Source of the DNA: Fibrobacter sp.
Lineage (GTDB): Bacteria > Fibrobacterota > Chitinivibrionia > Chitinivibrionales > Chitinispirillaceae
DNA length: 38,744 nucleotides
Assembly (NCBI GenBank): GCA_012523595.1
Contig: JAAYIG010000124.1
Location: forward strand, 1-38,744
Reading direction: 5' to 3'
Part shown: positions 1 through 34,165 of the stretch, in pieces
Layout: every line of letters starts with the position of its first letter
Position numbering within the stretch: position 1 is the first letter of the stretch
Notes under the pieces: generated by a model
Databases searched by the model: none
Seen by the model: the letters and a program-made list of their open reading frames with translations, nothing else
Told to the model about the DNA's origin: nothing
Translations under genes and position numbers: made by a program

Positions 1-870
1 AGAACAAATATCCTTAAAGGTATAAACCCCAATGACGGGACATTTATTCTGCCATGCGCGGCAATTGTCACCGATGTAAACGGGAATCCGGTTGCAGACG
101 GCACAGAAGTCAATTTCAGCCTGCAGGCATCGGGATATGTAACCAGAAAAATATACCCCACCTGGGAAGAATATTCCGGAGCCTCCGGGAGCATCTGCAA
201 TTACACCATCGATACAACTTTGGTTGTACTCCCGTTTGAAGATTTCAACAACAACTTTCACCTCGATCCGGGAGAAAACCGGAACGGAGATAATTATGCA
301 AACAGAGGAGAAGATCTAAACGGAGATGGTATTTATCTGCCCGGACCTCCTTTTGAAGATATCAACGGCGATGGAATACGGCAGGGTTACGGCAGCATTC
401 CCGTGGAAGAGAGACATGAATGCAATGGTAAATTTAAATTCGCAGACCTTAACAATAATGGTTACTGGGACCCGCTGGAACCGCTGAAAGACACGCTCTA
501 TCTGGCAGCATATAACCAGCTTCTGAAAGATACTGCATTCTTGAAAAACCCCTCTGCTTACACCAGCAGAGACTCTGCAAATTTCGCTATAATCGAACAA
601 CTGGAAGCAGAGTATAAAAGCAAACCAGGCTATATTCCTGAGTACGGGTGTTTTGATGCAGATGCAGACCACAATGGTGTCGCTGACCCCAATACAGCAG
701 TCAGCATAACCAGAACAGTACAGACATCCGGCGGAAAAGCACTCAACCAGATTCTTTACGGTCAATCAGATGCCACACGCATCGAGGTCATGATCTGGGC
801 TGAATCACAGGGTGTAGTAACTGAAACACCTGAAAAACTGATACTGCCAATTATCAGCGATGGGGAATAA
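1..870 (+). CDS. 3' part of a secreted Ig-like / Asp-Asn-rich (calcium-loop) protein, partial
   Basis: The frame is open from base 1, so the gene begins before the window; about 289 codons are visible. The first ~60 residues resemble a bacterial Ig-like (Big-1/invasin-type) strand pattern, with the phrase VTDVNGNPVADGTEVNF. Several acidic Dx(N/D)xDG-like loops follow (DFNNN, DLNGDG, DINGDG, DLNNNG, DADADHNG), of the kind that bind calcium in dockerin/EF-hand-like or thrombospondin-type-3-like repeats. The C-terminus has no sorting tail. The next gene starts inside its last codons, so the two are probably translated together. Role inferred: exported structural or adhesive surface protein. The exact family is not recognised. 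Confidence 0.75.
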   Translation, partial: RTNILKGINPNDGTFILPCAAIVTDVNGNPVADGTEVNFSLQASGYVTRKIYPTWEEYSGASGSICNYTIDTTLVVLPFEDFNNNFHLDPGENRNGDNYANRGEDLNGDGIYLPGPPFEDINGDGIRQGYGSIPVEERHECNGKFKFADLNNNGYWDPLEPLKDTLYLAAYNQLLKDTAFLKNPSAYTSRDSANFAIIEQLEAEYKSKPGYIPEYGCFDADADHNGVADPNTAVSITRTVQTSGGKALNQILYGQSDATRIEVMIWAESQGVVTETPEKLILPIISDGE

Positions 871-1651
871 AGTGAAAGAGATTAAAACAATATCGATTAT
901 CTTTTGTGTCGCAGCCGCTGCTATGGCATCCAATCTGGCAAACCCGGCTGCAGCAATTCCAGAGGCAAGAGTTGCCATAGGCGCCTCATACCATCTGGGA
1001 GGATACACATTAACAAACAAAGAGATCCCTTCCATTTTTAACCGCCTGCATGCAAGAGTGCACTATGCCCCGTTGAATTTCCTCGGCATAGGTGTGGATC
1101 TGGGAGCGATGCAGCTCGATGTGGAACGATATGTATTCAAGGGAGATACGGTTCCCCTGTTCCATGGAAAATTCGGGTTCTCAGGAGGAGCTCATCTCAA
1201 AGTCTCCACCCCCCCGTTTCTCAAAGAACGCTTATCCATCGTTGGAATCGGTCAGGCAACCTACTTCTTATCTAAAAACAAATATGACGCCTCATACAGT
1301 GGCTTTGATGGGACCGGGGCGATCGGACTTCAGTTCCATATCCCCGGGTTTGGTTACATCACAGCCGGACCACTTCTATACCTGATTCAGGGTGAAAACA
1401 AAAGCTACACAGGAGAGGAGAGCTTTTTCTCAAATGCCAATAACTTAAGGGGTTGGCTGTCTATTGATTTTTTCCCGAAGTTCAAGGATGAAACCTCGAA
1501 TAAATCCTACTTATCATTAGAACTCTCCATATCACCGAAGGCAAACGCCTCAAGCCGCGTTCCTGTACAGGAGTTCAGCATCTCCATCAGCCTGGGTTCT
1601 GTAACCGGAAGACTCTACGGAGTCGAATCTGGTCTGGACTGGGAACCTTAA
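860..1651 (+). CDS. Exported beta-barrel-like outer-membrane protein
   Basis: 263 aa. An N-terminal signal peptide (hydrophobic IISIFCVAAAA-like core, small residues around 28-32) is followed by alternating polar/aromatic strands rich in Gly, Tyr and Phe, as in small outer-membrane beta-barrels. ATG 860 overlaps the previous gene by 11 bp but has no visible Shine-Dalgarno site. An in-frame GTG at 872 lies 5 bases after GGGGA and may be the true start. Coupling with the upstream secreted protein suggests a surface pair. No named family is recognised; function unknown. Confidence 0.7.
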   Translation: MGNKVKEIKTISIIFCVAAAAMASNLANPAAAIPEARVAIGASYHLGGYTLTNKEIPSIFNRLHARVHYAPLNFLGIGVDLGAMQLDVERYVFKGDTVPLFHGKFGFSGGAHLKVSTPPFLKERLSIVGIGQATYFLSKNKYDASYSGFDGTGAIGLQFHIPGFGYITAGPLLYLIQGENKSYTGEESFFSNANNLRGWLSIDFFPKFKDETSNKSYLSLELSISPKANASSRVPVQEFSISISLGSVTGRLYGVESGLDWEP

Positions 1652-1712: not shown

Positions 1713-3179
1713 CTACTGAAAGGCAAGGTCTTCTTCCGTTTTAGTCAAAGTAAAGTAGAAGGTAGCCCCCTGACCGGGAGATGATTCCGCCCAGATCTTA
1801 CCGCCATGACGGCGCACAATGCGTTTAACAGTGGCCAGACCTATTCCTGTACCTGGAAAATCAGTATTTAAGTGAAGACGCTGAAATGGTACAAACAATT
1901 TAGAAGAATCAGCCATATCGAACCCTGCGCCATTATCTGAAACATAAAAGACCTTCTTTCCTTCCATTGTCTTCATCCCAAACTCAATGGCAGGATAAAC
2001 TGTTTTTCCGGTAAACTTCCAGGCATTCTGAAGCAGATTTTCCAGTGCAATCTTTAGAAGCTTAGGATCACACTCTGCATTGCAATCTGGTTGAACTGTA
2101 ATTTCGATGACACGTTGAGGTTCCCTTAGTTTTAAACTTGCAATGATTTCATTTACAATTCCGCTAAGATTTACCTCAACACACTTAAGTTCAGTCTGTC
2201 CAATCCTGGAGAATGTCAGGAGATCACTAATGAGCTCATTCATGCGCCGGATGTTCCTGCGGATCATTTCCACACTCTTTAAACCAGTCGCATCGAGTTT
2301 ACCGGAATAATCCTCCTGAAGCATTACCGCCAAACCATCGATACTCAGCAACGGGGCACGGAGATCATGGGAAACTGTATGGGTGAAAGCTGAAAGTTCA
2401 CTGTTCGACTCCTGAAGTTTCTCATTTGTCCTGGAGAGTTCTGCAGTACGCTCCCTGACTTTCATTTCCAGTTCAGAGTGGGCCTGGTAAAGCTCCTTTT
2501 CTGCCTTTTCCCTTTGTTTAATCTCTTTCTGCAATGCATTAAATGAATTTGAGACTGCAATTTTTTCCTCTTTGAGCTGAGAAATCAGATCCATTTTCTC
2601 ATAGCGTAACCGAAATGATGATTCCAGCACTTTGTGGTTGCTTCGGGCAATAAATGTGACAAGGGTACCAAACAGAATCAACATCGTTGCCATAGTGATA
2701 CCAACCGGGGTAGATGAGGTGAAAAACAATACTGTTACCGGAATCAGTGCCGGAATTGTAAAAGCATAAAATGTTCTCATCAGCGCTGAGTAGGTAGCTG
2801 ATGCACCTGCCATCATACCCCCCAAAACAAATGCGATCAGTACATCATGAGGCAAAGAATCGTGAAACAATACAAAAAACGCCGCTGATCCCCAGATTGT
2901 TCCGGAAACCACCATGGACAGAATCAGAAGGTCCCTCCAGGTCGATAATTGATATTTTCCCCTGTTTTTCTGGAACAGATAGAAGAATAAGAAGCGGACT
3001 ATGACACTCAGGTAGGTTATACTCAGCCATATAATGATGAACAGATGCGGAACGAGATTCCAGTGCAGAACGGCAACCAGAGTCCCGTTGATAATTGTTG
3101 CAGCCAACCCCACAGGGATCAGCCTGTATGTCTCTTCGATCAGATCCTGACTGACTTGCTCATCTTCATTCTTTACCAA
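1713..3179 (-). CDS. Membrane-bound sensor histidine kinase
   Basis: 488 aa, TTG start (no in-frame ATG before an upstream stop). Residues ~20-185 hold about six hydrophobic segments forming a membrane sensor. A coiled coil follows (~190-260), then a HisKA domain with the phosphoacceptor His at 271 (TVSHDLRAPL). The HATPase domain carries an N box (NLLQNAWKF), a G1 box (DNGAGFD) and a G2 box (GTGIGL). It would autophosphorylate and pass phosphate to a response regulator. No intact partner with a normal phosphoacceptor Asp is adjacent, so it is an orphan kinase here. The signal sensed is unknown. Confidence 0.93.
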   Translation of the reverse strand: MVKNEDEQVSQDLIEETYRLIPVGLAATIINGTLVAVLHWNLVPHLFIIIWLSITYLSVIVRFLFFYLFQKNRGKYQLSTWRDLLILSMVVSGTIWGSAAFFVLFHDSLPHDVLIAFVLGGMMAGASATYSALMRTFYAFTIPALIPVTVLFFTSSTPVGITMATMLILFGTLVTFIARSNHKVLESSFRLRYEKMDLISQLKEEKIAVSNSFNALQKEIKQREKAEKELYQAHSELEMKVRERTAELSRTNEKLQESNSELSAFTHTVSHDLRAPLLSIDGLAVMLQEDYSGKLDATGLKSVEMIRRNIRRMNELISDLLTFSRIGQTELKCVEVNLSGIVNEIIASLKLREPQRVIEITVQPDCNAECDPKLLKIALENLLQNAWKFTGKTVYPAIEFGMKTMEGKKVFYVSDNGAGFDMADSSKLFVPFQRLHLNTDFPGTGIGLATVKRIVRRHGGKIWAESSPGQGATFYFTLTKTEEDLAFQ

Positions 3180-3699: not shown

Positions 3700-4011
3700 T
3701 CATTTGATCAAAACCATCTCATCAAGCTGAATCGAGCGCATCAGATCCTTTATCGTATCATCTGCCCCGACAACATGTATCTCCGCTCTCATCTCCCTTG
3801 TCTCATTGTACATCGATACAATCAGAGAGATCGCCTTGGTATCCATATACTTACAATTAGAAAAATCCAAAGTCACTCTCTTTATATGAAGAGCAGGAAT
3901 CCTGTCAATAAACTCCTGTACCAAAGCAAACTGCGGTTCTGATGGGGAAAATACCATATCAAGACTGATAACAAAATGCCCACTTGTTTCCTGAGTAATT
4001 GAAAAACTCAT
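3700..4011 (-). CDS. STAS-domain protein (anti-anti-sigma-factor-like)
   Basis: 103 aa, essentially one STAS domain. The diagnostic strand-loop-helix LDFSNCKYMDTKAISLIV matches the SpoIIAA/RsbV pattern D(F/L)S...DS/TxA. The phospho-acceptor position is Thr58 rather than the commoner Ser. AGGGTGG lies upstream of the ATG. In known systems such proteins bind an RsbW-type HATPase when unphosphorylated. A receiver-HATPase fusion is encoded two genes away on the same strand, so a partner-switching role is likely but inferred. Confidence 0.85.
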   Translation of the reverse strand: MSFSITQETSGHFVISLDMVFSPSEPQFALVQEFIDRIPALHIKRVTLDFSNCKYMDTKAISLIVSMYNETREMRAEIHVVGADDTIKDLMRSIQLDEMVLIK

Positions 4012-4186
4012 TATCCACCCTTAATTTAAGAAAAAATCGAGACAGTACTCCAATGCCGACCATCAACGTTAAAACACTGGATCTCGCATAGATTCTATAA
4101 CTTAAGTGAGGACAATTCAACCTATTTGTTATGAAAGAAGTGTTTATTGGCAGGAATCATTGATTAATGCAGGAGGAGAAGAGGGA

Positions 4187-4552
4187 TTAACCCAGAATTT
4201 CGAGGACCTTATCGCGAATTTCACTGAAATTTATCGGCTTATGAATTATCTCGTGGATCCCGTCCAGCTTAAGAAGCTTTGACTCCAGTTCACCCTTCCA
4301 CCCGGTTACCAGGAAAAACTTGGTGTTGGAGCCCTGATTTTTCACAAAACGGGCAACGCAGCGCCCCCCTTTGGCTCTTACACAGAGTGAAGCAAAAACC
4401 GCGTCATATTTCTCACTACTGAGCTTATCCAGGCCTTCCTCGGAACTTTCAGCAATACTGACCTGACACCCCAAGCGGATCAAAGATCTTCTAAGAACCT
4501 CTCTTAACTCAGAATCATCTTCGACAATTAAAACCTGAAACATAGCTACCAT
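4187..4552 (-). CDS. Pseudo-receiver domain protein (phosphoacceptor Asp replaced by Ser)
   Basis: 121 aa, a single CheY-like receiver. The acidic pocket (EDD, residues 11-13), the switch Thr83 (LVTGW) and Lys105 (HKP) are present. The position that should carry the phosphorylated Asp reads Ser55 (DAVFASLCV); the DNA codon is TCA. It therefore cannot take phosphate by the usual route and may act as a constitutive binding module or through Ser chemistry. It starts at ATG 4552 or an in-frame ATG three codons later. It is located between the STAS gene and the receiver-HATPase gene on the same strand. Confidence 0.88.
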   Translation of the reverse strand: MVAMFQVLIVEDDSELREVLRRSLIRLGCQVSIAESSEEGLDKLSSEKYDAVFASLCVRAKGGRCVARFVKNQGSNTKFFLVTGWKGELESKLLKLDGIHEIIHKPINFSEIRDKVLEILG

Positions 4553-4672
4553 GGGGTGAAGGTTATAGCTATTTTTATGCCAAGCAAAGAAGCTTATTTT
4601 TTTAACCTCAGTGTAAAAATAGCCCTCTGTGGCCTCCCTAAAAAAGTAATTTTGCCCGAATCCGGAAAATTA

Positions 4673-5689
4673 TTATGACTCATGTATCATCAAAGGCTTA
4701 TTATCGCTGCTTTGACGGCTGAAATACTGAATCGCAATGCACTCTGTCCTTTTACCCGGCTTGATATCAATAATCATCCTGTCTATCAACCGCCTCACCA
4801 GTAAAAAGCCTCTTCCATGCTCCTCAACCGCAAAGCCCTCCCTGAAGGTATCAAGCCACTTCAGTACATCCGCCTTCCTCAAATTCCCCTGAAAATCAAT
4901 AACCGAAACACCCACCTTCTCCTCATCGTAAGCCCAGGTTAACCTGATAGGACAATCCGGTTTAACTTCTGAATATTTTAACCAGCACTCCCTGGGAAGT
5001 CCGGAGAGGCGAAGGGTGGCATGGAAAAAGGCATTCGAAATCAGCTCATCAAGGGCAATATCCAGAAAAATGCCTTTTTTTCCAGGACATACACCAGTGA
5101 TTGAGTTACAAGCCTCTTTTGCCTGCGCATAACTCTGTATCGACATAACCTTAAGCTTCTCTTCAGAGAAATGATATCCCAACCCGCACATGTCATCGAT
5201 AAGAATTGAACGCAGATAAGAACCGGTTTCCTCCCGCTCCTTTTCAGAACCAGCAAGCAACACGTTTCCAATATTATACCTGCGCATCAGAGGAATGAAC
5301 TGATCAACATTGCTTCCGGTAATAATTACCTGTTCTGCATAAGGAAACTTCTTCTGGAGTTTTTCGAAGGAGGTTAAGTTATCTCCTGACGGCACCCCAT
5401 TCAACTCGGAGATCACCAGGTCGGGACTCTTACCATCGATTATCCCCCCCGCTTCATCCGGACTGCCTGCACATACCACATTAAAACCATTCCCCTTCAA
5501 GGAATCCATAAGGGCACTCATACACCCCTGCATTCCAACCAGAAGTATGACTCTCTCGATGATGCTTTCCGAAAACCCAACTTTTTTGTGCAAAACCCGT
5601 AATGTCATGCGGTTAATATAAATAAGGCGCAGAAGGTAATTTACTATCCGGCGAATGGAATCAAAAAAATCAGAACCCCTCGCCTTCAC
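4673..5689 (-). CDS. Receiver (Asp to Glu)-HATPase fusion, RsbW-like
   Basis: 338 aa, GTG start with no good ribosome site; an ATG at codon 28 is an alternative. Residues ~46-165 are receiver-like, but the phosphoacceptor position is Glu95 (DLVISEL) and the N-terminal acidic pair is missing (LVGMQG), so it may mimic a permanently phosphorylated state. Residues ~185-320 form a GHKL ATPase: N box LDELISNAFFHAT, G1 around VIDFQG, G2 EHGRGFLLVRRL. There is no HisKA domain, so this resembles an anti-sigma serine kinase. The likely partners are the STAS proteins encoded on either side. Confidence 0.85.
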   Translation of the reverse strand: MKARGSDFFDSIRRIVNYLLRLIYINRMTLRVLHKKVGFSESIIERVILLVGMQGCMSALMDSLKGNGFNVVCAGSPDEAGGIIDGKSPDLVISELNGVPSGDNLTSFEKLQKKFPYAEQVIITGSNVDQFIPLMRRYNIGNVLLAGSEKEREETGSYLRSILIDDMCGLGYHFSEEKLKVMSIQSYAQAKEACNSITGVCPGKKGIFLDIALDELISNAFFHATLRLSGLPRECWLKYSEVKPDCPIRLTWAYDEEKVGVSVIDFQGNLRKADVLKWLDTFREGFAVEEHGRGFLLVRRLIDRMIIDIKPGKRTECIAIQYFSRQSSDNKPLMIHES

Positions 5690-5699
5690 TCTTAAAATA

Positions 5700-5708
5700 T
5701 GTTATAAT
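5700..5708 (+). promoter_or_regulatory. Extended -10 promoter candidate for the membrane STAS gene / tsaD
   Basis: TGTTATAAT, an extended -10 box, lies in the divergent gap 53 bases before the next ATG. The -35 region is poor, as allowed for extended -10 promoters. Confidence 0.4.
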
Positions 5709-5760
5709 GAACTTCTATGCACTGTCAGGATTCTACAGTTAATATGGAAAGAGGACTAAA

Positions 5761-6909
5761 ATGTCTTTCGCTGTTTATCTGATTATTTTTGGTATAGTCG
5801 GGTTAACCACCATACTATCTCTTGTCCAATGGGGTTATTTACTGTCATTATCCTCCAGAATAAAAGAGATAGAACAGGAAATAGAGAAAAAAGCACAGGA
5901 ATTTGATGTACTTCGAAAGAACAGAAACACAGAAGCCAGACCCGCGCCTCAAACAGAAAAGAATGAATTTCAGGATTTTAATACCCCATCGGAAAGCCCG
6001 GACAGCAATATGACCTGCTCCCCCATTCAGGTGATAAGACCAACCGATGATACCGGGGATAACGATATTATCGCTGTTCAGCCTGGAATCGCTGAAGCAC
6101 CCGCTCCCATCAGTAACGATGAAGCAGCCGGCGGGCTGGAAGATCCTGAAGGATCAATTCAGATTATGAAAAATGTTAACGGCAAATTCACAGATACAAG
6201 CATTTTCAGGATCAAGTCCCGGAAAAATGCGCCACAGGAATCTGTACCGGAAAACAACGAAAATCAAAGAGAAAGCTTCACTCCAGCTCAACATCCTGAT
6301 ACGTATGACAATCCTTTCTCCGAGGTATCCGATGACAAAGAACAGGAACCCATTCAGGTGGTGAAACCAGGCAAAGATGATCAATACGGCAGTGAAATCA
6401 TTCCAATCAGACCCTCAACCGAAGCGGATCCTTTTACGGGTACTTCCTATCCGGAGCAGAATACCTCTGAACCTGAAAATGTTGACCAGAGTTCTCTATC
6501 CGGGTCAGAACCAAACGATTCCGGAAGCAACTTATACCTGCCGCCTGAACATGTTGATTCTCCGACCGAGATCCTGCAGTCCATAAGCAGTAATAAACAT
6601 CACCACTCAAAGGAAACAGTCTCATCCACTCTGCCCCTTTACTCTGATGCTGCCCATGATGCAGATTTTCCGGGGCTCTGTAAAATGATCTCTCAGATAA
6701 TATCCACCCGGAAAAAGCCTGATATCAAGATCGATTTTTCGGGAATTCAGTTCATTTATGATAAAGAGCTTCAATATCTGGAAAAAATTCACCATATTAT
6801 AAAGGAGAGGGGCGGAAAGCTTTTGTTAATAAATTGCAGCCCTGAATTAAGCGAATTCCTGGGAAGAAATCCCGATCTGTTATCATTAATCAAAAAGACT
6901 CATACATGA
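5761..6909 (+). CDS. Membrane-anchored STAS-domain protein with long disordered linker
   Basis: 382 aa. One transmembrane helix (~5-30) is followed by a short charged coiled coil (~32-55). A ~230-residue acidic Pro/Ser/Asn-rich linker comes next. The C-terminal ~90 residues are STAS-like (IKIDFSGIQFIYDKELQYL; GGKLLLINC) but lack the usual Ser/Thr at the phosphorylation site. The linker repeats a motif three times: PIQVIRP, IQIMKN and PIQVVKP, each followed by an acidic stretch. GAGGA precedes the ATG. Its stop overlaps the tsaD start (ATGA), so the two are co-transcribed. It is divergent from the pseudo-receiver/HATPase gene. Confidence 0.75.
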   Translation: MSFAVYLIIFGIVGLTTILSLVQWGYLLSLSSRIKEIEQEIEKKAQEFDVLRKNRNTEARPAPQTEKNEFQDFNTPSESPDSNMTCSPIQVIRPTDDTGDNDIIAVQPGIAEAPAPISNDEAAGGLEDPEGSIQIMKNVNGKFTDTSIFRIKSRKNAPQESVPENNENQRESFTPAQHPDTYDNPFSEVSDDKEQEPIQVVKPGKDDQYGSEIIPIRPSTEADPFTGTSYPEQNTSEPENVDQSSLSGSEPNDSGSNLYLPPEHVDSPTEILQSISSNKHHHSKETVSSTLPLYSDAAHDADFPGLCKMISQIISTRKKPDIKIDFSGIQFIYDKELQYLEKIHHIIKERGGKLLLINCSPELSEFLGRNPDLLSLIKKTHT

Positions 6910-7889
6910 TCACTTTAGGAATAGAATCGTCCTGCGATGAAACTTCAGTCGCAATACTTGAAGACCAGAAAATAGTTGTAAACCATATCTACTCTCAGGT
7001 AGAGCACACCAGCTTTGGAGGAGTAGTACCTGAGATAGCCTCCAGGGCTCATCTGGAAAAGATCGACAGGCTGACACTTTCAGCCCTGAAAGAATCATCA
7101 CTTACCCTTCGGGATATTGACCTCATTGCAGTCACAGACAGCCCCGGTCTTGCCGGAGCGCTTCTGGTGGGGGTCAGCTTTGCCATGGGAATTCATAACG
7201 GATGGGGTATACCGATCACAGGAGTAAACCATCTCGAGGGCCATATATTCTCAGCGATGCTTGAAAACCCTCAGCTTCAGTTCCCTTTTCTCGCGCTGGT
7301 GGTTTCCGGGGGACATACGGCAATTTACAAGGTCCTTGACACTGGAGATTATACCTGCCTTGGACAGACCGTAGATGACGCTGCCGGAGAAGCATTTGAC
7401 AAAGTGGGAAAACTGCTGGGATTTGAATATCCTGCCGGACGGTCAATTGAGCAGGAAGCGGCAGTTTCACCGGAGGACACAGGGATTACCTTTCCGGTTG
7501 CAAGAGTCAGCGGAGGCCCCTTCGATTTCAGCTTTTCAGGGTTGAAAACTGCTGTCAAGTATTTTCTGGCCGGGAAAGACAGCACCTTTATAAAAGAGAA
7601 CCGCCCCGCGATATGCAAAGCTTTCCAGAAAGCAGTCATAGATTCTCTTCTTGGGCGGCTTTCGGAGACATCACGGAAAACCGGAATCAAGGAAGCAGCC
7701 CTGGTGGGAGGTGTAGCCTGTAACGGAACATTACGACAGGAGATGAAAAAAATCTTCGGGGAGAAAGCATACTTCCCCAGGCCGGGTCTCTGTACGGATA
7801 ACGCGGCGATGATCGCCATGGCAGGATACAAAAGAAAAGGAAAAAACCTGACTCATTTCCCCCGCATGGAACCATCCAGGGGTCTTTGA
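6906..7889 (+). CDS. tsaD: tRNA N6-adenosine threonylcarbamoyltransferase
   Basis: 327 aa, close to the usual ~335. It transfers the threonylcarbamoyl group from TC-AMP to A37 of tRNAs that read ANN codons, in a complex with TsaB and TsaE, in the cytoplasm. The N-terminal MITLGIESSCDETSVAIL is diagnostic. The iron-binding HLEGH motif, the VVSGGHT nucleotide loop, FDFSFSGLKTA and the C-terminal VGGVACNGTLR and CTDNAAMIA motifs are all present. It overlaps the upstream STAS gene by 4 bp and is followed 13 bp later by a small membrane protein. Confidence 0.98.
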   Translation: MITLGIESSCDETSVAILEDQKIVVNHIYSQVEHTSFGGVVPEIASRAHLEKIDRLTLSALKESSLTLRDIDLIAVTDSPGLAGALLVGVSFAMGIHNGWGIPITGVNHLEGHIFSAMLENPQLQFPFLALVVSGGHTAIYKVLDTGDYTCLGQTVDDAAGEAFDKVGKLLGFEYPAGRSIEQEAAVSPEDTGITFPVARVSGGPFDFSFSGLKTAVKYFLAGKDSTFIKENRPAICKAFQKAVIDSLLGRLSETSRKTGIKEAALVGGVACNGTLRQEMKKIFGEKAYFPRPGLCTDNAAMIAMAGYKRKGKNLTHFPRMEPSRGL

Positions 7890-21048: not shown

Positions 21049-22137
21049 TCACTTACCAGTATCAATTAAACGCCTGAAAAAGTTTTCATAATTATCAATT
21101 GTCCGTTCAATCGAAAAATCTTCAAGCGCACGTTTGTAACCGTTACGGATAAGCTTCTCCCGGAGTGTTTTATCTTTAATACACCTCTCAATACTTGCAG
21201 CCAGTTGCTCGTGGTTATTATCTGAAAAGAGCAGTCCGCACTCTTCATGCCGGATTACATCTGATATCCCGCCGAAATCAGTCCCCACGACAGGTACTCC
21301 ATTTGCCATTGCCTCGATCAGTACAAGACCGAATCCATCGGTAGTAGACGGGAGAACATCAACGTTCATGAGCTTATAATAGTCAAGGACTTCATCGGTG
21401 CCAACCTTACCGGCATAGATGATTTTCTGTTTTACACCAAGACTTTGCGCTAAATCATCGAGACAGTTCTTCTCAATACCGACAAAAAGGACCTTATATG
21501 AAGGGTCAAGGTGTGTCAGTGCGTGAATCAACTGAGCCTGCTTTTTCAAGCGTGACACACATCCGATGACGACATCATCGGGTGCAATACCCAGTCTGTT
21601 TCTTAATTGTTCAACATGGCTGCTGTCACTGTTTTTGTATCTGCTGACAGGAGTACCATTATAAATAACCTCAAGGTGTGATGCAGGATAGCCCTTATCG
21701 ATGAATATCCTTTTCAATGTGTCACTTACAACTACTATTTTGTCCGTTCCCCTGATATAGAATTGCCGCTGAATAAAACCGCCATCACTGCGTGGCGGTT
21801 GACGCCGGGTATGGACAATTTTGCAATTGAGCCGGTGAAACCATCGGGCTAATATGGCTGTGTACCGGTCGTAACTCGATTGTGCATTGATAAGTTCAAT
21901 AGAATACTTTTTTGCTACATCTGCAATATGTCGTATGTTGTTAAGATCTAATCGTCCATTGAATACCATCGGTATGACATTTACAGGTGTCCCGCTGAGC
22001 ATGGAAAATAAAAGGCTCTCCTTACGACATCCGACTACTACGGTATGTCCGCGCTGCACCAATCCCAGAGCAAGAAATGATATCGAATTTGTCGAACCAG
22101 CCATGTCTCCCTGATAGGTCAATAGCATGATATTCAT
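21049..22137 (-). CDS. GT4-family glycosyltransferase, copy 1
   Basis: 362 aa, GT-B fold. The N-terminal acceptor domain starts MNIMLLTYQGDMAGSTNS. The C-terminal donor domain has VIGCVSRLKKQ, LPSTTDGFGLVLIEAMANGVPVVGTD (EX7E-type site) and GGI.DV, as in PF00534/PF13439 enzymes that move sugars from nucleotide donors to glycans or lipids. It is about 94 % identical (about 22 differences counted by eye) to the GT4 at 31205-32293. Both copies are full length. It is convergent with the xylanase fragment, separated by a strong terminator. The acceptor is unknown. Confidence 0.9.
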   Translation of the reverse strand: MNIMLLTYQGDMAGSTNSISFLALGLVQRGHTVVVGCRKESLLFSMLSGTPVNVIPMVFNGRLDLNNIRHIADVAKKYSIELINAQSSYDRYTAILARWFHRLNCKIVHTRRQPPRSDGGFIQRQFYIRGTDKIVVVSDTLKRIFIDKGYPASHLEVIYNGTPVSRYKNSDSSHVEQLRNRLGIAPDDVVIGCVSRLKKQAQLIHALTHLDPSYKVLFVGIEKNCLDDLAQSLGVKQKIIYAGKVGTDEVLDYYKLMNVDVLPSTTDGFGLVLIEAMANGVPVVGTDFGGISDVIRHEECGLLFSDNNHEQLAASIERCIKDKTLREKLIRNGYKRALEDFSIERTIDNYENFFRRLIDTGK

Positions 22138-31204: not shown

Positions 31205-32293
31205 TCACTTACCAGTATCAATTAAACGCCTGAAAAAGCTTTCATAATTATCAATCGTCCGTTCTATCGAAAAATCCTCAAGTGCACGTTTGTAACCGTT
31301 ACGGATAAGCTTCTCCCTGAGTGTCTTATCTTTAATACACCTCTCAATACTTGCAGCCAGTTGCTCATGGTTATTATCTGCAAAGAGCAGTCCGCACTCC
31401 TCATGCCGGATTACATCTCTTATTCCACCAAAATCAGTCCCCACGACAGGCACTCCATTTGCCATTGCCTCGATCAGTACAAGTCCGAATCCATCGGTAG
31501 TAGACGGGAGGACATTGACACTCATGAGCTTATAATAGTCAAGGACTTCATCAGTGCCAACCATACCGGCATAAATAATCTTCTGCTGTACACCAAGACT
31601 ACGCGCCAAATCATCAAAACAGTTCTTCTCGATACCGACAAAAAGAACCTTATATGAAGGGTCAAGGTGTGTCAGTGCGTGAATCAACTGATACTGTTTT
31701 TTCAGGCGTGATACGCATCCGATAACAATATCATCGGGTGCAATACCAAGTCTGTTTCTCAATTGTTCAATACGGCGGCTGTCACTGTTTTTGTATCTGC
31801 TGACAGGAGTACCATTATAAATAGCTTCAAGGTGTGACGCAGGATAGCCCTTATCGATGAATATCTTTTTTAATGTATCACTTACAACGACTATCTTATC
31901 TGTTCCCCTGATATAGAATTGCCGCTGAATAAAACCGCCATCACTGCGCGGTGGCTGACGCCGGGTATGAACAATTTTGCAGTTGAGCCGGTGAAACCAT
32001 CGGGCTAATATGGCTGTGTAACGGTCGTAACTCGATTGTGCATTGATAAGTTCAATGGAATACTTTTTAACAACATCTGCAATATGACGTACGTTGTTGA
32101 AATCTAAGCGTCCATTGAATACCATTGGTATGACATTTACAGGTGTCCCGCTGAGCATGGTAAACAAAAGGCTCTCCTTACGACATCCCACTACTACGGT
32201 ATGTCCGCGCTGTGCCAGGCCCTCCGCGAGAAAAGATATCGAATTTGTCGAACCAGCCATGTCTCCCTGATAGGTCAATAGCATGATATTCAT
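31205..32293 (-). CDS. GT4-family glycosyltransferase, copy 2
   Basis: 362 aa from ATG 32293, which matches the start of copy 1; an upstream TTG would add 11 residues. It has the same GT-B domains and EX7E-type region (IEAMANGVPVVG). Differences from copy 1 cluster around residues ~170-245 (SRRIEQ for SSHVEQ, FDDLARSLGVQQ for LDDLAQSLGVKQ). Both copies keep an intact frame while the linked xylanase copy decayed, suggesting both are under selection or the duplication is recent. Acceptor unknown. Confidence 0.9.
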   Translation of the reverse strand: MNIMLLTYQGDMAGSTNSISFLAEGLAQRGHTVVVGCRKESLLFTMLSGTPVNVIPMVFNGRLDFNNVRHIADVVKKYSIELINAQSSYDRYTAILARWFHRLNCKIVHTRRQPPRSDGGFIQRQFYIRGTDKIVVVSDTLKKIFIDKGYPASHLEAIYNGTPVSRYKNSDSRRIEQLRNRLGIAPDDIVIGCVSRLKKQYQLIHALTHLDPSYKVLFVGIEKNCFDDLARSLGVQQKIIYAGMVGTDEVLDYYKLMSVNVLPSTTDGFGLVLIEAMANGVPVVGTDFGGIRDVIRHEECGLLFADNNHEQLAASIERCIKDKTLREKLIRNGYKRALEDFSIERTIDNYESFFRRLIDTGK

Positions 32294-32439
32294 AATTAAG
32301 GCTTTCTCAAACTGAAGATTACACAATCCATTATAACATCCGTTATAACAATAAGTCCCTCATGGATGCCCATACCAGGCAAACTGCCCGACCGTAACCC
32401 GTCCCGTGCCACTTAAGATAATAGTTGCGCCGGAACAGT

Positions 32440-32685: not shown

Positions 32686-33912
32686 CTATTTTACTTCTGC
32701 AGGCTGTTTTCTGGTTAACACTGCAGGCCGGAAAATGAATTTCTGACCTCCTATTGCAGCCTCTATTAACAGTCCGCCCTGCGAAAACAGGTAAACTTTA
32801 TCGGCCTTATACTTTGTGGTAGCTTCAGCACCTGCTTTTACGATTACTGCTCCGGCATTTGCCGCAAATCCAATTTTTCCCTTTTTAAATCTCTCCAGAC
32901 CTTCCTTATCTGCAAACAGCACCACAGCATCAAATGTCTCTCCCCCGATCTGTACACCGATGGTCAATTGCACTATCCCTGCATAGCCAATAAGTTTTTT
33001 CTGTTCAAACACTTCTCCCTTTCCGTATGCTCCGCCCACTACAAGCCCGGCTCTTCCCACCGAAGGGAAAATTGCATAACCATAAGCCTGATCCATGGAA
33101 TGCTTAAACTGAGGATGAGCCTCCTCTATCATTTTTAAAACCGCTTCTACCTCCTGCCTTAATACCCGATTAGTGGAAAGTTCCTTTTTAGCGCCGGTCA
33201 CCATACCAGCAATCGCATCGACTGGTGATTTTCTATGCTTCCCATTATGAGGCAGGATTTTTCCCAATACAGGTACTTTTGTCATCTGCTTTGCAGCCCA
33301 CTGCCCCACACCATTTTTTATTGATGATCCCAGGCCGGGATCTTCACGCTTGTCATCAGAACTCTTTTCTTTTGGTTTTTCTGATGCTGGTTGCTCTGTT
33401 TTTTCCGGTTCAGGTTCTTTTGGAGCAGGTTTGTTCTGTGGTATTTTCTCCAGTGGTGGAATAAACATGAATTTTGAACCACCCAGTGAGAGCTCTAATA
33501 ACATCCCTCCCATTGAATAAGCACTGGCCTCCACATCAGAAACATTATTGGTGGCGGTTGCAGCAGCTTTAACCATTACAGCCGAAGCGTTGGCAGTAAA
33601 ACCTAATTTTCCCCGTTTTTTAAATCTTTCAAATGACTTTTTATTGCTGAAAGTAAGTATCTGGGTAAAAGTCTGTCCTCCTACCTGAACACCAACTGTT
33701 ATCTGACTCATGGTTGCAAAACCTACAGGTTTACCTCCTTCAAAAACTTCACCCTGTCCATAAGCCCCACCCAAAACAACTCCAGCTCTTCCCACCGAAG
33801 GGAAAACTGCATAACCGTATGCTTTTTGCAACTTTTCTTTGAGGTCTTTATGTTTTTCCTGTAATCGATTGAGTGCTGCTGCGACTTCTTCATGAATCGT
33901 AGCTTCAAGCAT
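32686..33912 (-). CDS. Tandem SYLF-domain (DUF500/Ysc84-like) protein
   Basis: 408 aa from ATG 33912, chosen for the GAGGGGG site 5 bases before it; a TTG 12 codons earlier is less likely. Two SYLF domains, ~1-160 and ~245-405. Each has AYGYAVFPSVGRAG or AYGYAIFPSVGRAG, GGAYGxGEVFE, GVQ(V/I)GG and xxFANA-like GFTANASA/GFAANAGA segments. A Pro/Glu/Lys-rich linker joins them. In eukaryotes the domain binds phosphoinositides and actin. Bacterial roles are unproven, and most bacterial members have one domain and a signal peptide, which this lacks. Confidence 0.88.
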   Translation of the reverse strand: MLEATIHEEVAAALNRLQEKHKDLKEKLQKAYGYAVFPSVGRAGVVLGGAYGQGEVFEGGKPVGFATMSQITVGVQVGGQTFTQILTFSNKKSFERFKKRGKLGFTANASAVMVKAAATATNNVSDVEASAYSMGGMLLELSLGGSKFMFIPPLEKIPQNKPAPKEPEPEKTEQPASEKPKEKSSDDKREDPGLGSSIKNGVGQWAAKQMTKVPVLGKILPHNGKHRKSPVDAIAGMVTGAKKELSTNRVLRQEVEAVLKMIEEAHPQFKHSMDQAYGYAIFPSVGRAGLVVGGAYGKGEVFEQKKLIGYAGIVQLTIGVQIGGETFDAVVLFADKEGLERFKKGKIGFAANAGAVIVKAGAEATTKYKADKVYLFSQGGLLIEAAIGGQKFIFRPAVLTRKQPAEVK

Positions 33913-34165
33913 GTCTACCCCCTCTCCCCCCTGGGATTCTCCGGCCAATCGGCTCAGTTCAGCATTGAGCAGCGCATTTGCGATTTTTTAATAAGCAATA
34001 GATATACCTGAAGACCGAAAAGACGGGAATCAGTCCGGATTTATATTGAAGATAGGGGGCAAAAAAATTGATCTGCAAAAAAGCAAAATGTTTATTATAA
34101 TATGTAGTTGAATAATCTTTACATTTTTAGATTCAGATATTCCGTGTTAAGGAGGGTTAAACCAG
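33913..34165. other. Divergent gap SYLF / CE1
   Basis: No gene. TATAAT at ~34096 and AAGGAGG at 34149 serve the esterase gene. The shared promoter cassette is not present. Confidence 0.4.

Follow-up and report, generated by a model that had tools for sequence, protein, structure and literature searches.

Among described systems, those closest to the one considered here join a receiver to an RsbW-like ATPase or lack the receiver's phosphoacceptor. LvrC of Leptospira (PDB 9qih) is a response regulator made of a receiver and a Bergerat domain of the anti-sigma type, and its canonical receiver is phosphorylated by LvrB (PMC13269768). TciR of Vogesella indigofera and the TciR-like proteins represent a widespread REC/RsbW-like architecture with no assigned target; the cognate sensor kinase of TciR is TciK, and V. 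indigofera reportedly has no RsbV homologue (PMC12826045). In SypE/SypA of Vibrio fischeri, a REC domain joined to an RsbW-like kinase domain has a STAS-only partner. Pseudo-receivers and atypical response regulators such as FrzS and CmrT form a further group, for which a residue other than Pro at D+4 and Val or Ile at K-3 are typical, retention of the acidic pair is atypical, and the manner of switching in the absence of Asp phosphorylation is presented as an open question (PMC12632262). We analyzed a 38,744-nucleotide contig of Fibrobacter sp. (GenBank assembly GCA_012523595.1, contig JAAYIG010000124.1; referred to below as the window) carrying a locus next to tsaD that encodes a single-domain receiver without the acceptor Asp (RecS), a degenerate receiver fused to an HATPase (RecH), a soluble STAS protein, a membrane-anchored STAS-like protein (mSTAS), and a small secreted peptide. 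We tentatively propose, at slightly less than even confidence, that RecS works as an adaptor receiver independent of Asp, within a partner-switch-like locus of Chitinispirillia (Fibrobacterota) that is linked to the envelope.

An earlier note, made from the sequence letters, had described four of these genes as a partner-switching cassette built on two non-canonical receivers. All four are present (Table 1), with domains backed by Pfam and, for mSTAS, by the predicted fold, and alignments place Thr58 of the soluble STAS protein, Ser55 of RecS, and Glu95 of RecH at the switch or acceptor positions, as had been claimed. The peptide gene, absent from that account, is a fifth conserved gene of the locus. 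The mSTAS gene and tsaD share 4 bases (6906-6909). For RecH, the GTG at 5689 probably lies upstream of the true start, which would be near 5551-5605, given that homology begins only near 5551.

Table 1. Features of the tsaD-linked locus, in window positions
Feature	Positions	Strand	Basis and remarks
Soluble STAS-only protein	3700-4011	-	Pfam STAS 1.3e-9; Thr58 at switch position
RecS, single-domain Asp-less receiver	4187-4552	-	Pfam Response_reg 1.3e-12; Ser55 at acceptor position
RecH, degenerate receiver + RsbW/SpoIIAB-like HATPase	4673-5689	-	HATPase_c_2 8.6e-6, slightly short of the curated Pfam cut-off; TciR/LvrC architecture
mSTAS, membrane-anchored STAS-like protein	5761-6909	+	Alignments, predicted model, fold comparison
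STAS domain of mSTAS	6619-6906	+	Alignment, predicted fold
tsaD, tRNA N6-threonylcarbamoyladenosine (t6A) threonylcarbamoyltransferase	6906-7889	+	Pfam TsaD 2.4e-82
Small secreted peptide, 69 amino acids	3394-3603	-	Signal-peptide-like start, variable linker, conserved C-terminus TTWSKIKDLFM
Conserved flanking gene	860-1651	+	Signal-peptide-like start; no family match; flanks most of the loci

The surrounding DNA was compared for RecH orthologues from 16 genomes, including the window, and RecS and mSTAS were searched for in 168 Fibrobacterota genomes. RecS was found in 22 of these genomes and mSTAS in 19, with both together in 18, one of which (G035) holds only diverged, Asp-bearing RecS copies that do not lie beside tsaD. 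The nearest named records of the RecS carriers are Fibrobacter sp., Chitinispirillaceae, and Chitinivibrionales metagenome assemblies. RecS, RecH, and the opposite-strand pair mSTAS-tsaD recur in identical order in 15 related loci, at 45-77% identity for RecS and 35-54% for RecH, and the cluster is thus far from chance. Counted over the 21 loci with an Asp-less, tsaD-linked RecS, a divergent tsaD is near RecS in all 21, and in 20 the peptide gene lies 3' of RecS in the same orientation. Of the other genes, mSTAS occurs in 17 of these loci, RecH in 15, and the soluble STAS gene in only 5 (the window, L037, L041, L044, and L123). Six loci (L118-L123) have RecS without RecH, two of which (L119 and L122) are also among the four that have no mSTAS; one locus (L045) has RecH without RecS. 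The conserved neighborhood that had been expected in relatives is therefore real, and the four-gene set as a conserved unit is not. Loci without RecH, STAS, or mSTAS also rule out the four genes as an obligate cassette. The constant part of the locus would instead be the Asp-less RecS, accompanied by the gene of a small secreted peptide and anchored beside tsaD.

RecS is a recognized receiver without the residue required for phosphotransfer and, in that sense, a pseudo-receiver. The acceptor position holds Ala in 17, Ser in 3, and Pro in 1 of the 21 tsaD-linked copies, and 2 further copies with Asp complete the 23 examined. The Thr (Thr83 in the window) and a Trp at T+2 (Trp85) are invariant across all 23, the Lys (Lys105 in the window) is found in 22, and both Thr and Lys are present in every tsaD-linked copy; the acidic pair is retained in the window and in most copies. 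Every tsaD-linked copy should thus be unable to use aspartyl phosphate at the usual site, which agrees with what had been proposed for this protein. Ser55 was considered as a substitute phosphoacceptor and ruled out, given that this position is Ala in most relatives. Like the FrzS- and CmrT-type proteins, RecS lacks the acceptor Asp and the Pro at D+4 (Arg, Lys, or Tyr in its place) and has Val or Ile for Tyr or Phe at K-3 (PMC12632262); unlike them, it consists of one domain, retains the Thr and Lys and in most copies the acidic pair, and keeps its place beside tsaD and a secreted peptide. Searching solved structures with the RecS sequence at 1e-12 returned no match, a threshold that generic receivers do not reach.

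Synonymous sites are saturated between the window and its genus mate, and constraint in that pair was judged by nonsynonymous divergence (dN) and identity. RecS has the lowest amino-acid divergence in the locus (dN of 0.15), on par with tsaD (0.14), compared with 0.26 for the HATPase half of RecH and 0.56 for the RecH receiver. In one pair, RecS is 96% identical, versus about 70% for RecH and 52% for STAS, and the closer pair L040-L041 gives a RecS ratio of nonsynonymous to synonymous divergence of 0.07. By these measures RecS is kept under strong constraint and evolves as slowly as tsaD. We hypothesize that the most likely role of RecS is that of a protein-binding adaptor and not of a phosphorylation switch.

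Several observations weigh against this proposal. The kept Thr, Lys, and, mostly, acidic pair are not obviously needed by a pure binding domain. Two RecS copies (L124 and L125), diverged paralogues of one genome that lie away from tsaD, do bear Asp, which on the tree may have been either kept or regained. RecS occurs without RecH in six loci and without mSTAS in four, so neither is an obligate partner. Finally, tsaD is a housekeeping gene, and its linkage to RecS may merely reflect slow rearrangement.

The same linkage could be read in another way: RecS, the peptide, and mSTAS would regulate or assist either the synthesis of t6A by TsaD or a process of the cell envelope that is linked to it. 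The linkage of Asp-less RecS to tsaD in 21/21 loci, the 4-base overlap of mSTAS with tsaD, a diverged RecS beside a TrmFO-like gene in L124, and, in two genomes, RecH paralogues directly adjoining a gene for an RluA-like pseudouridine synthase all point in this direction. tsaD is near-universal; RecS is missing from most of the Fibrobacterota genomes searched, and to our knowledge receivers and STAS domains have no role in t6A synthesis, which together make this explanation highly improbable. As observations in their own right, the diverged, Asp-bearing RecS lies just 3' of the TrmFO-like tRNA methyltransferase gene (L124, 1718-3639), the RecH paralogues overlap the RluA-like gene (L002, 566-2436; L124, 4956-7194), and RNA-modification genes repeatedly adjoin RecS and Rec-HATPase regulators.

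RecH shares its domain order and fold with LvrC and, like TciR, has an N-terminal REC and a C-terminal RsbW-like domain. An AlphaFold2 model of a RecH fragment (predicted local distance difference test [pLDDT] of 82) matched receiver folds with Z scores of 9-10 across fragment residues 1-120, SpoIIAB at 13.8, and LvrC (9qih) at 12.8, and 9qih ranked first in Foldseek. Pfam Response_reg matched 14/16 members and HATPase_c_2 all 16. The ATP-site residues D168, Glu169, and Asn173 and an HGxG motif are invariant in 16/16, among them the residues that align with the catalytic Glu and the Mg-binding Asn of SpoIIAB. On sequence and model together, the HATPase domain is SpoIIAB/RsbW-like, and RecH belongs with the known TciR/LvrC response regulators, of which the window protein is a degenerate homologue and not a working member. 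A phosphorylatable receiver needs the acidic pair, Asp, Thr, and Lys; in the window these positions read V, G, E, T, and A, the acidic pair being replaced by Val and Gly, the Asp by Glu95, and the Lys by Ala. Glu95 had thus been named correctly, and the loss is not of Asp alone, since nearly the whole site is gone and only the Thr is kept. Neither LvrC, whose receiver is canonical, nor TciR shows this degeneration; no pseudo-receiver, STAS, or peptide partner has been described for LvrC, and RecH differs from TciR in adjoining STAS proteins.

The degeneration is confined to few lineages. All five residues are intact in 11/16 RecH orthologues. The degenerate receivers are those of the window, its genus mate, and L051, together with L047 and L050, which represent two genomes of a different genus; the tree is compatible with more than one number of separate losses. 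Within the window's genus pair, the RecH receiver is 37% identical versus 65% for the remaining protein, and in pairs with intact sites the receiver and the remainder are equally similar (ratio of 1.00). This pattern fits relaxed constraint after a lost phosphorylation input better than a conserved new function, and we read the loss in the window's genus as a recent, lineage-specific erosion. Glu95 as a selected phosphomimic is not favored, given that Gly occupies this position in the genus mate and the remainder of the site is lost. The two Asp losses, which had been seen as one design, are therefore different events: that of RecS is common to all tsaD-linked copies and constrained, and that of RecH belongs to a fast-diverging receiver in few lineages. 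Likewise, a circuit that no longer runs on aspartyl phosphate is partly right for RecS and the window's lineage and does not fit RecH in most relatives. Intact-Asp homologues without a conserved neighborhood had been named as counterevidence to that circuit; the intact homologues exist for RecH, and the neighborhood is conserved nonetheless. In most relatives, aspartyl phosphate on RecH's own intact receiver could still control its output, and in the window's genus this input would have decayed, leaving RecH constitutive or partner-controlled. The window's genome also holds two RecH paralogues with intact receivers.

These findings might also be explained if RecH were an ordinary Rec-regulated anti-factor of the TciR/LvrC type, degrading in the window's genus after loss of its sensor kinase, with RecS and mSTAS belonging to something else and being mere neighbors. 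The decay is indeed specific to the receiver, and the RecS-tsaD-peptide linkage survives without RecH. We consider this explanation unlikely, given that RecH lies immediately 5' of RecS with almost constant spacing in 15/16 RecH loci spanning several families and that its HATPase half is still constrained. The histidine kinase at 1713-3179 was considered as a cognate sensor and ruled out, as it is not conserved across loci.

mSTAS consists of an N-terminal membrane helix, a short coiled coil, a variable linker, and a C-terminal STAS fold. The Pfam STAS match alone is weak (E=0.015), and the assignment draws on a profile-profile match of this domain to the soluble STAS protein (E of 3.6e-7) and a model of it (pLDDT of 91) with Z scores of 9.4-10.4 to SpoIIAA, RsbV, and TM1442. 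The switch position holds Asp or Glu in 15/18 copies (Asp334 in the window), Thr, Pro, and Lys once each, and never Ser, and the position of SpoIIAA Gly60 (Glu336 in the window) is Glu in all copies. Given both features, mSTAS should not be able to serve as a usual Ser-switched partner, and the Ser/Thr switching at the membrane that had been proposed is contradicted for this protein. In most loci, mSTAS may instead be an inner-membrane docking site. Its linker, variable in length, contains a conserved IQIVRNVRG-like stretch that is likely a binding motif, a suggestion drawn from the alignment. The window's linker holds several IQVIRP-, IQIMKN-, or IQVVKP-like stretches, most orthologues having one (IQIVRNVRG), and these look like a repeated short binding motif.

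The soluble STAS protein does have a phosphorylatable switch residue, Thr58 in the window and Ser in other genera, and its best solved matches are TM1442 and SpoIIAA. The targets of Rec-RsbW proteins are unassigned (PMC12826045, PMC13269768), and the STAS proteins adjacent to RecH are candidate partners. RecH could bind, and perhaps phosphorylate, such partners, for example the soluble STAS protein at Thr58. A closed four-gene switch goes further, having RecH phosphorylate both STAS proteins while two Asp-less receivers bind and thereby set its activity. All four genes lie side by side in both the window and its genus mate, the RecH HATPase retains kinase-type residues and the soluble STAS protein its Thr or Ser, and in L124 paralogous STAS and Rec-HATPase genes overlap head to tail. 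Such a switch is nevertheless distinctly unlikely, given that the soluble STAS gene is present in a minority of loci, RecH is missing in six, mSTAS mostly lacks a switch Ser/Thr, and the RecH receiver is intact in most orthologues. Compared with SpoIIAA/RsbV-SpoIIAB/RsbW, the locus shares the Thr/Ser switch of the soluble STAS protein and the HATPase fold with its conserved Glu and Asn, and it differs in lacking a sigma factor or phosphatase, in the nonphosphorylatable switch of mSTAS, and in the scarcity of the soluble STAS gene. SypE differs from RecH in its PP2C domain and its domain order, and the Syp system has no pseudo-receiver or membrane STAS. No cognate PP2C phosphatase was found among the locus genes examined. 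Cross-talk is possible, given that six SpoIIE-type phosphatases, two dozen STAS matches, and several RsbW-like HATPases are present elsewhere in the genome.

Conservation of the peptide, in 14 aligned copies, is confined to the C-terminal motif. A degenerate DNA pattern of this motif occurred exactly once per genome in 25/61 relatives, and the reversed-pattern control gave zero occurrences. The peptide had no Pfam match above chance, and its weak NCBIfam matches (E of 0.015-0.03) were not trusted. Where RecS is missing, a few genomes carry the peptide beside different neighbors, twice a SurA/PpiD-like isomerase gene (named from reading the open reading frame), and in the outgroups L115 and L116 it is only 40-41 amino acids long and lies 3' of such a gene. 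Because of these other neighbors, the peptide appears to be older or more independent than the remaining parts of the locus. A wholly phosphorylation-independent system is conceivable, in which the Asp-less adaptor would read the secreted or periplasmic peptide, with its invariant WSKIKDLF-type C-terminus, together with the nonphosphorylatable mSTAS, and would set a STAS-dependent output alone or via the RsbW-like protein; we regard this as very unlikely. In the literature searched, no description of a peptide/pseudo-receiver/membrane STAS system was found.

RecS is of wider interest as a clean natural series: throughout an order, this single-domain receiver is fixed in its Asp-less form, is as constrained as tsaD, and has few recurring neighbors, some of which are lost in identified lineages. 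RecS belongs to anaerobic fiber- and chitin-degrading bacteria and is a good natural case of a putatively phosphorylation-free receiver. RecH provides the contrast, since there the same receiver fold has lost its site in a few lineages and diverges rapidly.

The protein encoded at 860-1651 has no NCBIfam match; its gene borders the locus in most relatives, with 48-72% identity. Elsewhere in the window, two near-identical glycosyltransferase-like genes (21049-22137 and 31205-32326, minus strand) lie about 10 kb apart, and a gene at 32686-33948 (minus strand) encodes a protein whose two halves are alike, each carrying a YGYAVFPSVGRAG or YGYAIFPSVGRAG stretch, and which we take to resemble Ysc84-like lipid-binding domains.

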